Source: an uncultured Deferribacteres bacterium
Lineage (GTDB): Bacteria; Zhuqueibacterota; JdFR-76; DREG01
Assembly (NCBI GenBank): GCA_913009825.1
Contig: CAJVYQ010000059.1
Location: forward strand, 1-34,964
Direction: 5' to 3'
Length of the DNA: 34,964 bases
A program made the position numbers and the translations under genes. Shown here piece after piece: positions 2,780 through 29,907 of this stretch. Below the pieces are notes generated by a model, which saw nothing but the letters and a program-made list of their open reading frames with translations, made no database searches and had not been told where the DNA came from. Within the stretch, counting starts at the first letter, position 1. The number at the start of each line of letters is the position of its first letter.

Positions 2780-3084
2780 TTATGCGATAATATTACCAAC
2801 AATAACTTTGTTGATTAGGTAACCGCCCGAACTTTCTCCAAAACAAGAAGAACTGCCGTTCATATTCTGCCTGTCATCAAAGGGAAGCTTTGGGATGTTG
2901 TCCCGGTGTTGTTCAATAAAATCATCAATGATTCTGTTGATTAATTAAACTTCCAAAGTTTCCCCGTGGACGTTTGTCAACATATTGTATGTTCCAAAAA
3001 TATAAATCACATTTTGCAGAATTGATCAAAAACTTTGGAAGTTTTTTGCATTAAATCAACAAACTCATCAATGTCCCTCGCCAT
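2780..3084 (-). pseudogene. Short ORF split by a MITE (possible small gene remnant)
   Basis: If the 135-bp element at 2930-3064 and one 8-bp duplication are removed, an uninterrupted 53-codon frame appears, from ATG at 3084 (overlapping the last codons of the DUF1684 gene) to TAA at 2780-2782. It reads MARDIDDFIEQHRDN, then IPKLPFDDRQNMNG. Only MARDI plus insertion sequence remains joined today. I recognise no family, and a 53-codon frame can occur by chance, so this may never have been a gene. The charged, low-complexity-free N-terminal half is the only sign of coding. Confidence 0.25.
2930..3064. mobile_element. MITE family 2, copy A (8-bp duplication)
   Basis: The 135-bp element has terminal inverted repeats built on TGTTGATTAATTAAACTTCC / GGAAG...AATCAACA (the right arm has small differences) and is flanked by the direct repeat TCATCAAT (2922-2929 and 3065-3072). 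A reverse-complement copy lies at 19751-19880 with a different 8-bp duplication (ATTAATGA). It landed on the stop codon region of the DUF1684 gene; the stop TGA lies in the duplicated target, so the reading frame was preserved. It has no coding capacity. Confidence 0.85.
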
Positions 3085-19750: not shown

Positions 19751-19880
19751 GTTTGTTGATTAATTAAACTTCCAAAGTTCTTGATCAATTCTGCAAACTG
19801 TGATTTATATTTTTAGAACATACGATATGTTGACAAACGCCCCCGGAGAAACTTTGGAAGTTTAATTAATCAACAGAATC
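19751..19880. mobile_element. MITE family 2, copy B, nested in a TGTCTG element
   Basis: This 130-bp element is the reverse complement of copy A (2930-3064), with ends TTGATTAATTAAACTTCC and its complement. It is flanked by ATTAATGA at 19743-19750 and 19881-19888. The sequence just left of it (19712-19742, TAGTGTCTGAACGAAAAC, then TTTTCTGTAATTAATGA) is one end of the TGTCTG family, so copy B inserted into an older element. No matching right end of that older element remains obvious. Confidence 0.85.
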
Positions 19881-20112
19881 ATTAATGACGTTTTTTGTTG
19901 TTTTTCAGAGTTTCAGGGAAACATAATTCAACACATTGGAAACAAATTTTCCATTACAATAATGGTAAAAATAAACGAAAAAATCAAATTTTACAATTTC
20001 ATCCTTGCCTTTTTCATGTAAGAGACTTAAAATAAGGAACATCGATATTCACTAGCGACATATTTGATTTGCGTTTCTGCCTCCCTTTGAAGGATAAAAG
20101 AGAGAGAACAAA

Positions 20113-21615: not shown

Positions 21616-22764
21616 ATGAAAAGAATCATTGCATCGCTCATTATAATAGGTATGATTGCAGCTATTTCACCTATCCTGTTTGCCCAGCAATCCAATTTTA
21701 ACGGCCTGCACATGAATATGGGCAATCTGTTCCGGTTGTCCCACGCCAAAACACGCTCCATCAGTCCGGAGAATTTTACCGGCGAAAAAGGCAAAGGCGG
21801 TATGTCCACCGACGGTCTGGCCGCAAAAGCAGCGCGGGATTTGGGACAGGGCTGGAAAGTTTCGCCCTACATTCACATCAAATCCAAAGAAACTTTTGTT
21901 TTAGCAGAAATTAATGGTCCCGGCGCTATTCAGCAAATCTGGATGACTCCAACAGGAAACTGGCGTTTTTCTATCCTGCGCTTTTACTGGGATGGCGAAA
22001 CCGAACCGTCGGTGGAAGTGCCTGTGGGTGATTTTTTTGCCAGCGGCTGGGGGAAATACGCCAAAGTAACCTCCTTAGCGGTTAACGTGAATCCGGGCAG
22101 CGCATTCAACTGCTACTGGGTGATGCCGTTCCGCAAATCATGCAAAATAACCATGGAAAATCTGGATGATAAAAAGATGACCCTGTTCTACCAGATCAAT
22201 TATACACTGACCGATGTTCCCGATGATGCGGCTTATTTTCACGCACAATTCCGGCGAACCAATCCGGTACTCTACAAACAGGATTACACAATTGCAGACG
22301 GCATCAAAGGGCAGGGACAGTACGTGGGGACCTACATGTGCTGGGGATCGAACAGCAGCGGCTGGTGGGGCGAAGGAGAAATCAAATTTTACATGGATGG
22401 CGACACCAAGTTCCCAACTATCTGCGGTACCGGCACAGAGGATTACTTTTGCGGTTCATACTGTTTTGTGGTAAATAACCGATACGTAGAATATTCAACC
22501 CCGTATGCCGGTATGCCTCAGGTACTGAAACCGGACGGATTATGGAATTCCCAGCAGCGTTTCAGTCTGTACCGCTGGCATATTCTGGATCCCATTCGAT
22601 TTGAAAAAGATCTGAAAGTAACCATGCAAGCTCTGGGCTGGCACTCCGGCGGGCGCTATTTACCTTTGCAGGATGATATTTCCTCCGTAGCTTTTTGGTA
22701 CCAAACCGAGCCTCATGCAAAATTTCCCAAACTGCCGGATCGGGATTATCTGGAAGTGAAATAA
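21616..22764 (+). CDS. GH172 (DUF2961) family glycoside hydrolase, paralogue 1
   Basis: A 382-aa exported enzyme of the DUF2961 family, now GH172, whose characterised members act on difructose dianhydride, alpha-fructofuranosides and D-arabinofuranosides. A signal peptide ends at about ILFAQQ. The core has SHAKTRSISPENFTGEKGKG, GPGAIQQIWMTP, LRFYWDGETEPSVEVPVGDF, WWGEGEIKFYMDGD and GTGTEDYFCGSY; Glu255 and Glu275 in the last two are the likely catalytic carboxylates by family analogy. The end (LPLQDDISSVAFWYQTEPH) completes the double jelly-roll, and length is normal. AAGGAG precedes the ATG. It follows the sulfatase gene and precedes a very similar paralogue, so it probably belongs to a glycan-use cluster. 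Confidence 0.92.
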   Translation: MKRIIASLIIIGMIAAISPILFAQQSNFNGLHMNMGNLFRLSHAKTRSISPENFTGEKGKGGMSTDGLAAKAARDLGQGWKVSPYIHIKSKETFVLAEINGPGAIQQIWMTPTGNWRFSILRFYWDGETEPSVEVPVGDFFASGWGKYAKVTSLAVNVNPGSAFNCYWVMPFRKSCKITMENLDDKKMTLFYQINYTLTDVPDDAAYFHAQFRRTNPVLYKQDYTIADGIKGQGQYVGTYMCWGSNSSGWWGEGEIKFYMDGDTKFPTICGTGTEDYFCGSYCFVVNNRYVEYSTPYAGMPQVLKPDGLWNSQQRFSLYRWHILDPIRFEKDLKVTMQALGWHSGGRYLPLQDDISSVAFWYQTEPHAKFPKLPDRDYLEVK

Positions 22765-22847
22765 TCAAATGAAGTTCGATGCGGGACTATGCGATAAAAC
22801 AGGATTCCGGATATTTGTCCGAAAATACCGTTTTTATCATTTTGATC

Positions 22848-23012
22848 GTAACCGATCACAGGAGGTGAACAACCTAAAAAAACCGTTAAAACGGTTCTAA
22901 AATATTTTTTATGCGTTAGCCCACGACTTAAGTCGTGGGCTAAAATAGTAAAGATATTAGCAACCGCTTCAGCGGTTTAAACTTAATGCATGTTTACGCC
23001 GTGATCGGTTAC
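22848..23012. mobile_element. Nested palindromic element with GTAACCGATCAC ends and TTTTGATC duplication
   Basis: The outer 12-bp repeats GTAACCGATCAC / GTGATCGGTTAC are perfect and are flanked by TTTTGATC at 22840-22847 and 23013-23020. Inside lie three more palindromes: AACCGTTAAAACGGTT (22881-22896), a perfect 28-bp one centred on GACTTAAGTC (22916-22943), and AACCGCTTCAGCGGTT (22962-22977). The element fills most of the gap between the two GH172 genes and has no coding capacity. Confidence 0.85.
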
Positions 23013-23166
23013 TTTTGATCCGCTAAAAAACGAAGGATTTTTTTCACTTATTTATTTTCAGTGGAGATATGATTTCAAAATTTCGTTTCTCCCTGGATAA
23101 AAGTTTCATCGGCTTTCAGACAAACGTTAATCAATCTATTCATTTTACAAAAAAAGGAGAAAAATC

Positions 23167-24315
23167 ATGGGAAAATTCCTTGCACTTTTTTGTCTTATTG
23201 GCATAATGGCCGTTTTTTCACCGGACGTTTCCGGCCAGCAATCTGGTTTCAATGGTCTTTACATGAACATGGGTAACCTGTCTCATTTATCGCACGCCAA
23301 AACCCGCTCCATCAGTCCGGAGAATTTTACCGGCGAAAAAGGCAAAGGCGGCATGTCCACCGACGGTCTTGCCGCTAAAGCGGCACGGGATTTGGGACAG
23401 GGCTGGAAAATTTCGCCGTACATTCACATCAAATCCAAACAAACTTACGTACTCGCAGATATTATGGGCCCCGGCGCTATCCAGCAAATCTGGATGACCC
23501 CGACGGGAAACTGGCGATATTCTATCCTGCGCTTCTATTGGGATGGTGAAACGGAACCATCTGTAGAAGTACCGGTTGGGGATTTTTTTGCCAGCGGTTG
23601 GGGAAAATATGCAAAAGTCACCTCCCTTCCCGTCAATGTCAATCCGGGCAGCGCTTTCAATTGCTACTGGGTGATGCCGTTCCGCAAATCCTGCAAAATC
23701 ACCATGGAAAATCTTGATGATAAACAGATGACGGTTTATTATCAAATTAATTACACTCTCACGGATGTTCCCGAAGACGCCGCTTATTTTCATGCCCGGT
23801 TCAGACGTGTTAATCCGCTCCCCTACAAAGATGTTTACACCATCGTGGACGGCATTAAAGGATGGGGACAATATGTAGGCACGTATATTTGCTGGGGCTC
23901 CAATAGCAGCGGCTGGTGGGGCGAAGGCGAAATTAAATTTTATATCGATGGCGATAAAAAATTCCCTACTATCTGCGGCACCGGCACGGAAGATTATTTT
24001 TGCGGCTCGTACGGATTCGAAGTAAATGGCCGGTATCAGGAATACACCACACCATACGCAGGGATGCCGCAAGTTTTAATCCCTGATGGTCTGAACCAAT
24101 CGCAGCAGCGATTCGGTCTGTACAGATGGCATATCATGGATCCGGTGCGGTTTGAGAAAAATTTGAAGGTAACTATCCAGGCTTTGGGCTGGCGTTCCGG
24201 CGGCCGTTATCTGCCGTTGCAGGATGATATTTCTTCCGTGGCATTCTGGTATCAAACGGAACCCCATAAAAAATTCCCTAAACTGCCGGATCGGGATGAG
24301 TTGGAAATTAAATAA
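23167..24315 (+). CDS. GH172 (DUF2961) family glycoside hydrolase, paralogue 2
   Basis: The same length as its neighbour (382 aa) and alignable without gaps, with over four-fifths identity by eye. Signal peptide (LFCLIGIMAVFSPDVSGQQ), catalytic-region motifs (WWGEGEIKFYIDGD, GTGTEDYFCGSY) and C-terminus are all kept. Differences cluster around residues 205-230 and 290-330 (for example FEVNGRYQEYTTP for FVVNNRYVEYSTP), which may tune substrate choice. The DNA of the first part (SHAKTRSISPEN to IKSK) is nearly identical to paralogue 1, whereas later parts differ at many third codon positions. AAGGAG precedes the ATG. A 400-bp gap holding a mobile palindromic element separates the two copies, so they may have separate messages. 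Confidence 0.92.
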   Translation: MGKFLALFCLIGIMAVFSPDVSGQQSGFNGLYMNMGNLSHLSHAKTRSISPENFTGEKGKGGMSTDGLAAKAARDLGQGWKISPYIHIKSKQTYVLADIMGPGAIQQIWMTPTGNWRYSILRFYWDGETEPSVEVPVGDFFASGWGKYAKVTSLPVNVNPGSAFNCYWVMPFRKSCKITMENLDDKQMTVYYQINYTLTDVPEDAAYFHARFRRVNPLPYKDVYTIVDGIKGWGQYVGTYICWGSNSSGWWGEGEIKFYIDGDKKFPTICGTGTEDYFCGSYGFEVNGRYQEYTTPYAGMPQVLIPDGLNQSQQRFGLYRWHIMDPVRFEKNLKVTIQALGWRSGGRYLPLQDDISSVAFWYQTEPHKKFPKLPDRDELEIK

Positions 24316-28459: not shown

Positions 28460-28598
28460 GTATCCACTCAATATTTAATAGTATTTTTGGTTTTAGCCGC
28501 TAAGACACCAAAGCACAAAGATTCATAAAATATTATTTTTGTGTTTCTTTGTGCCTTAGTGGCAATTACTACACTACCATGATTTATTGAGCGGATAC
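28460..28598. mobile_element. MITE family 3, copy 1 (GTATCC ends, TTCCGTTA duplication)
   Basis: The outer ends GTATCCACTCAATA / TATTGAGCGGATAC and an inner stem GCCGCTAAGACACCAAAGCA / TTTGTGCCTTAGTGGC form a nested palindrome of 139 bp. It is flanked by the perfect 8-bp repeat TTCCGTTA (28452-28459 and 28599-28606). A second copy lies at 29766-29907. It is non-coding. Confidence 0.85.
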
Positions 28599-28888
28599 TT
28601 CCGTTACATGAATTAACCGGACGAAATGATTCAGACAGGTCGGTTGTTTGATGAATAGTAAGCCTCCGGCTTTACCCAGGCTAACATTGAAAACCATGCT
28701 AAGCCCTTCAACAAGCTCAGGATAAACTTAGTCGCAGCTTGATTACAGTTATTATTATTGAACCCACCTGAATCATTACAAGTGTACAAAATAAACCTGT
28801 TTAAATCAATCTAAAATTTGAGGAACACACAAATTTATCGCAGTAAAATGAAAATTTTAGGTAACTATTCAGGTATGCACTAATAATC

Positions 28889-29020: not shown

Positions 29021-29080
29021 AAATAGTTTTGCCCGAATTGGTTTTGCCTGTTTCGGCGATCAAGATTGAATAGTTACAAC

Positions 29081-29683
29081 TCAAGTTTCGCAGTTAGTTA
29101 ACCGGCATAAAAATAAGGGAAACCGGCATAAAAATAAGCAGCATACAACCTCACAACTTAATAAATTATAATATGTTAATACATAATTCCAAAACAGAGG
29201 TTATATGCTGTATATTACCAGGTATTACAAAATTGCACGAATTGAAATGATTTTTTACACATCCTGAAAAAGCCGGTGATACTCTTTCAGATATCAGTGA
29301 GACATTCATAGCAATTAAGAGACATTTTCAGCCGTCCCAACGGGGTGAAGTACAATAGCCCGGGGCAACGCCCCGGGGGGGAAAGAGGAAAAAGAATAAC
29401 AAGCCCTGAAAGGGCGGAATATTTGCCTGTGCCGGTACGGTCTGTTCATTTGAATTTTGTATTTCGCCCCTTCAGGGCTTGACTCCGTTGTTTTTTCCCC
29501 CGGGGGCGTTGCCCCGGGCTGGTATATTCCGCCCTTTCAGGGCTCGCAGGATATAAATCAATGAACAGGGATTGTCCCGGAAACATACGGATACTTGCTT
29601 TATGCACAAGATGATTAACATCGAAGAATGGAACAAAAGATATTCCGGACAACTGTATTTTTCGGATACTGACAAGTTACAAT
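29081..29683. repeat. Long inverted repeat, right copy
   Basis: This is the reverse complement of 4-754 without the 211-bp insertion and with one additional palindromic module (around 29476-29541, another CCCGGGGGCGTTGCCCCGGG unit). It lies 28.3 kb from its partner in inverted orientation, so recombination between the copies could invert everything in between. Overlapping ORFs inside are products of the palindromic modules and not genes. Confidence 0.85.
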
Positions 29684-29765: not shown

Positions 29766-29907
29766 GTATCCGCTCAAGAATTGAGGGTAAAAATGAAATA
29801 TTTGTTAATCAGCCACCAAGTCACAAAGACACTAAGTTCTAATAAAACACATAATTAGTGCCTTCGCGGCTATTATTTCTCTTCACTATTAAATATTGAA
29901 TAGATAC
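29766..29907. mobile_element. MITE family 3, copy 2 (AAAAACGC duplication)
   Basis: The outer ends GTATCCGCTCAA / TTGAATAGATAC and inner stem GCCACCAAGTCACAAAGACA / TTAGTGCCTTCGCGGC match copy 1 at 28460-28598 in layout. It is flanked by AAAAACGC at 29758-29765 and 29908-29915. Confidence 0.85.

Follow-up and report, generated by a model that had tools for sequence, protein, structure and literature searches.

A 165-bp palindromic element separates two DUF2961 genes

The window analysed here is a stretch of 34,964 nucleotides from the genome of an uncultured Deferribacteres bacterium, below called the host genome. Two genes located in tandem on its plus strand, at positions 21616-22764 and 23167-24315, encode DUF2961 (PF11175) paralogues, which we take to be GH172 proteins; the downstream paralogue is 85% identical to the upstream one. 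The region between them contains a 165-bp element (positions 22848-23012), which is located 83 bp past the upstream stop codon and 154 bp ahead of the next open reading frame (ORF). The original prediction had delimited it as 22840-23020, which corresponds to the element proper plus the duplication on either side.

The ends and flanks of the element are as had been predicted. The left terminal repeat, GTAACCGATCACAGG (15 bp, 22848-22862, plus strand), is mirrored by a right terminal repeat on the minus strand (22998-23012) of which the outer 12 bp are perfect: GTAACCGATCAC at 22848-22859 has its exact reverse complement at 23001-23012. The octamer TTTTGATC occurs just twice in the entire window, at 22840-22847 and 23013-23020, abutting both ends and constituting an 8-bp target duplication. 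All three predicted inner palindromes are present at the places named, being AACCGTTAAAACGGTT (22881-22896), the perfect 28-bp palindrome TTAGCCCACGACTTAAGTCGTGGGCTAA (22916-22943) and AACCGCTTCAGCGGTT (22962-22977); hairpins related to the first two adjoin a Y1 transposase gene (see below). This set, an AACCG hairpin on either side of the 28-bp palindrome, is referred to as cargo type A. The 28-bp palindrome is the sole perfect palindrome of at least 20 bp in the window, and perfect palindromes of at least 28 bp were found in none of 30 shuffled windows (single-base shuffles).

Over its full length the element forms one imperfect foldback. RNA folding, which the original prediction had singled out as a check, gave stable structures in both orientations (-69.8 kcal/mol, z -10.1 for the plus strand; -69.6, z -9.4 for the minus strand), and folding of the single-stranded DNA gave -39.1 (z -8.7). 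No Rfam family reached its gathering score in the window.

The element landed in an older repeat

The sequences flanking the element belong to a family of MITEs that we name H. The left flank (22816-22847, plus strand) is a relic of H (TTAGTGTCTGTCCGAAAATACCC...), the target, and this relic continues in the right flank (23021-23028, plus strand; CGCTAAAA versus CGCCAAAA), beyond which it has decayed. When joined, the flanks align across the junction with nine uninterrupted H copies (TTAGTGTCTGTCCGAAAATACCC...GATCCGCCAAAAGGCGGAGAGAAATCTG) in the same genome, each of which contains a single octamer: TTTCGATC in eight of them and TTTTGATC, the octamer duplicated in the window, in one (L194). The H copy in the window is decayed more than about 8 bp to the right of the junction, and the match to L194 runs over about 35 bases with 78% overall identity. 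The nine H copies thus constitute a paralogous empty site, and the element landed in an older MITE. The proposal that it transposed and in doing so duplicated 8 bp is therefore borne out, both by these empty sites and by the duplication present in most of its copies (see below).

Four more copies with type A cargo (L113, L106, L114 and L139) are located inside H, at a AGAGAAAT sequence that uninterrupted H copies contain once. Because all four have this site in common, dispersal as an H-plus-A composite is possible. The H family itself (L185, L186, L188-L193) is MITE-like, has TTAGTGTCTGTCCGAAAA ends and has repeatedly been hit by elements with GTAACC ends.

Dispersed copies have the same ends and mostly an 8-bp duplication

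A DNA search of the host genome gave 40 scored matches, many of which are both strands of one palindromic place; the best copies were 75-88% identical over almost the whole length. The end pattern GTAACCRATCACAGG was found 316 times in the host genome with up to three mismatches, versus 96 times for the reversed-pattern control, and 122 versus 6 times with up to two mismatches. At the latter threshold the counts in 38 relatives were low (2-20 versus 0-14 for the control); the expansion of GTAACC ends is therefore specific to the lineage of the host genome.

Copies were surveyed in 80 genome stretches, obtained from the first 100 listed of the 316 end places together with the hairpin and Y1 matches. 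Pairing of inverted ends in these stretches gave 44 candidate pairs, of which 37 were kept as elements. Of the seven pairs dropped, six (L107 twice, L127, L130, L134 and L001) overlapped a retained pair and amounted to alternative pairings, and one (L079, 2197-2390) had no recognisable octamer. Since the elements were collected via their ends, the common ends are partly given by construction, and the octamers provide an independent check. Among the 44 pairs, exact direct repeats had a length of 8 bp in 18 cases and 7 bp in one, and none were 5, 6 or 9-13 bp long. Mean flank identity was 0.75 for repeats of 8 bp and 0.27-0.40 for the other lengths, and flanks matching at six or more of the eight positions were found for 31 of the 44 real pairs versus 44 of 1892 combinations of mismatched flanks. 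For the 37 elements, whose 15-bp ends follow GTAACCRATCACAGG, the two octamers matched at 8/8 positions in 18, 7/8 in nine, 6/8 in four and at most 5/8 in six. According to simple ORF calls the neighbouring ORFs were tandem in 26 cases, convergent in three and divergent in two; four elements were at the edge of a stretch and two overlapped a doubtful ORF.

With a length of 165 bp, no gene, terminal inverted repeats, dispersed copies and a duplication of fixed length, the element is a MITE. A search of the 80 stretches for an autonomous copy (end pairs up to 3.4 kb apart with an octamer match of at least 6/8) gave, apart from pairs of 100-260 bp, just two candidates, of 1390 and 444 bp; each had a 6/8 octamer and was unconvincing, and relaxing the partners allowed for unpaired ends gave nothing convincing. 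In one stretch (L134, 1812-1841) the left end of an element with type B cargo (see below) is duplicated in tandem over 15 bp, and the outer of the two copies abuts the octamer.

The same ends enclose different hairpin sets

Four hairpin sets could be distinguished between the GTAACC ends of the 37 elements. Ten copies contain cargo A, the set of the element in the window; 16 contain cargo B (CGCCTGAAGC... / GCACCCTAAAGGGCGCTTTAGCGTCC / GCCTGAGGATTTATCCTCAGGC), six contain cargo C (TGTCATTCAGGA...TCCTGAATGACA), and five contain cargo D, which consists of C-rich/G-rich stems. Representatives of the other types also fold back (z -5.1 for B, -7.5 for C and -5.2 for D). Comparison of the consensus sequences showed that similarity between types is confined to about the first 15 bp; the type A consensus, in which orientations are mixed imperfectly at the ends (some rows may be flipped), was used solely for this limit. 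The idea of different cargo hairpins is hence not only supported but can be extended, in that GTAACC ends alone enclose at least four unrelated sets. In addition, two chimeras were observed: L133 has a D-type hairpin where the left hairpin of A would be, and L114 has a foreign hairpin within the central palindrome of A.

The element at the DUF2961 locus is most likely a selfish insertion

DUF2961 homologues were detected in 13 of 21 genomes including the host genome, which alone has two adjacent copies, and in the stretches of nine relatives nothing similar to the intergenic region was found (local scores 21-33). The original prediction held that conservation of the same element in all relatives would imply a fixed regulatory role. 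Matches were found in four of 38 relatives, and solely over the hairpins. A regulatory RNA governing both paralogues, as a terminator, attenuator or mRNA stabiliser, would be in keeping with the very stable fold and with the location of the element 83 and 154 bp from genes in tandem. Against this, the same element adjoins unrelated genes elsewhere in the genome, the DUF2961 homologues of relatives lack it, and a terminator-like site was found nowhere on its plus strand and only once, weakly, on its minus strand. We consider such a role highly improbable. Most likely the element is a selfish insertion in the gap between tandem paralogues, whose hairpins may incidentally influence the 3' end of the upstream mRNA. 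Beyond such possible effects of stable hairpins we see no grounds for assuming a regulatory role.

Cargo hairpins of two types resemble repeats adjoining Y1 transposase genes

The host genome contains nine Y1_Tnp matches. The core of cargo A aligns with units on both sides of one of these genes (L146) with a score of 48, versus 23.3 +- 2.4 for shuffled sequences (z 10.4, 60 shuffles), and the core of cargo B aligns with repeats adjoining another (L148; z 10.4, 60 shuffles). Neither core matched the remaining Y1 stretches tested. Cargo C scored in two Y1-gene stretches (L149 and L026) and cargo D had no match in the Y1 stretches; a specific link to a Y1 gene thus exists for two of the four cargo types, A and B. 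The Y1 proteins of L146, L148 and L147 exceed the NCBIfam cut-off for IS200/IS605 transposases, and structure comparison matched those of L146 and L148 to ISHp608 and other solved IS200-type transposases. We call them RAYT-like on the basis of the flanking palindromes. The hairpins of the cargo have the look of REP-type units from IS200/RAYT-like HUH transposases, now enclosed in a MITE. At L147 (2230-2700 and flanks) a Y1 transposase gene lies within tandem long multi-hairpin units (CCCGCCAATGAATTGGCGGG...), which form a different type of REP array.

The similarity of the inner hairpins to repeats beside a Y1 gene, together with the presence of hairpin units in other genomes, might suggest that the whole element is a REPIN- or BIME-like unit moved by a RAYT (HUH, Y1) transposase, and that its GTAACC ends are merely the outermost palindrome arms. 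This is very unlikely in view of the exact 8-bp duplications, which Y1 enzymes are not known to generate. Moreover, identical ends enclose unrelated hairpins, and on inspection the hairpin units near the Y1 gene or in other genomes are without GTAACC ends. Outside the host genome, A-type hairpins were seen in four relatives (of 38) and a Chlorobi contig.

The element resembles REPINs and BIMEs with RAYTs (as described in the cited parts of PMC3116915 and PMC2817692) in having several palindromes per unit, in its intergenic location and in the related hairpins near Y1 (IS200-type) genes. It is unlike them in that DDE-type inverted ends and 8-bp duplications delimit it, in the several unrelated hairpin sets between the same ends, and in having no REP tag: the tetramers GTAG and CGTC, which define superfamilies in the cited part of PMC3733652, are absent from both strands of 22848-23012. 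That part of PMC3733652 also describes REP dimers located in longer palindromes of Anabaena variabilis and H. neapolitanus, a similar case of REP-type hairpins inside another palindromic repeat; there, no outer palindrome lacking a REP was found. Unlike that case, the ends studied here are constant with different hairpins and have a demonstrable target duplication.

The ends and duplications point to IS66-type machinery

Genes for IS66 transposases were absent from the host genome (0 matches in a 123-contig assembly of 96% completeness) and from six order-level relatives, and IS66 matches were found in 21 of 82 genomes of the phylum. We searched 18 stretches around IS66 genes for inverted ends with an octamer, leaving the end sequence free. 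Three convincing elements were obtained, with lengths of 2409, 2520 and 1525 bp, at least 14/16 identity between ends and an 8/8 octamer. Their end pairs (GTATCCCCTCGG/GCATCAAC, GTATCCGCCCTG/GTTCGTCG and GTAACTGTTCAG/ATTTTTTG) all begin with GTA[A/T]C, as GTATCC or GTAACT. Three further pairs reported at threshold (12/16, 7/8) were not credible, and 12 of the 18 stretches, several of which ended at contig ends, gave no pair. The ends found have GTA[A/T]C and scattered bases in common with GTAACCRATCACAGG and do not match it over the full 15 bp. The 1525-bp element resembles ISDge4 of the ISBst12 group of IS66, for which the cited part of PMC12898284 gives the ends GTAACTGCTCAGCA / GTGACTACTCAGCA and a fresh insertion with an 8-bp repeat. 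Repeats of 8 bp are also given for the IS66 members ISPpa5a and ISPpa7 in the cited part of PMC3281130.

The layout had been predicted to parallel that of a GTATCC family in the window, and this parallel is upheld, since both GTATCC-family MITEs (28460-28598 and 29766-29907) are flanked by exact 8/8 duplications, TTCCGTTA and AAAAACGC respectively. Related machinery for the two families, as also predicted, is plausible: the three intact IS66 elements from the phylum have GTATCC or GTAACT ends and an exact 8-bp duplication. For this reason we think that the GTAACC and GTATCC elements were probably mobilised by IS66-type machinery. The GTAAC-type ends and the 8-bp duplication are shared with the ISBst12 group (ISDge4, in the cited part of PMC12898284; L251). 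Unlike members of that group, the element in the window is 165 bp long, contains no gene, differs in its full 15-bp end and resides in a genome without an IS66 gene. The main weakness of the IS66 reading is that the transposase is missing where the MITE is abundant.

That absence is also what would favour a MITE of another DDE family making 8-bp duplications (IS256, IS4-like, IS1595, ISL3, IS6 and others), and the host genome does contain four DDE_Tnp_1 matches and one IS256-type match. Around these five genes, however, neither GTAACC ends nor a convincing octamer was found, and IS1595, the further family searched for, had no match in the host genome. In addition, the only intact octamer elements with GTA[A/T]C ends found in the phylum, where IS66 genes alone were examined, encode IS66. 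We therefore regard another DDE family as unlikely.

According to the IS66 reading, a DDE transposase of this family, with GTA[A/T]C-type ends and 8-bp duplications, would recognise the 15-bp ends and move whatever sits between them. In the window the element inserted in a decayed H copy, duplicating the octamer TTTTGATC, and would be a DDE-type vehicle for palindromes originating from single-strand (HUH) systems. More speculatively, the element may be a two-tier parasite: IS66-type MITE ends would form a general vehicle, and REP cassettes taken from different RAYT-like HUH systems would go in and out of it one hairpin at a time. Palindromes would then be spread by single-strand (HUH) and DDE transposition acting together. 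The chimeras L133 and L114 fit such swapping, and we hold this scheme to be possible rather than probable.

In kind the element is thus nothing out of the ordinary, being a MITE, but its anatomy is unusual in combining IS66-like ends, REP-like hairpin cargo and exchange of cargo between constant ends. A search of the open-access literature turned up no MITEs in which IS66-like ends are constant and RAYT-type hairpins exchangeable. If the ends are truly of IS66 type, several abundant and seemingly unrelated palindromic repeats of the host genome (the GTAACC, GTATCC and perhaps GTAACTATTCAGG families) would come down to one mobilising principle. Constant ends with variable hairpins would also give REP palindromes a concrete way to be spread by a classical transposase, and this anatomy makes hairpin exchange within MITEs testable.

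Other repeats in the window

Ends of the sequence GTAACTATTCAGG are located at 28861 and 34736 (plus strand) and at 29077 (minus strand), and are near those of the IS66/ISBst12-type element L251 (GTAACTATTCAGCTA); within the window no two of them form a pair with a good octamer. Positions 4-754 and 29081-29683 are inverted, repeat-rich non-coding copies that are about 90-95% complementary in several blocks and enclose about 28 kb. Another inverted repeat pair of 130 bp, with 92% complementarity and AACTTTGGAAGTTT motifs, is located at 2915-3044 and 19766-19895.
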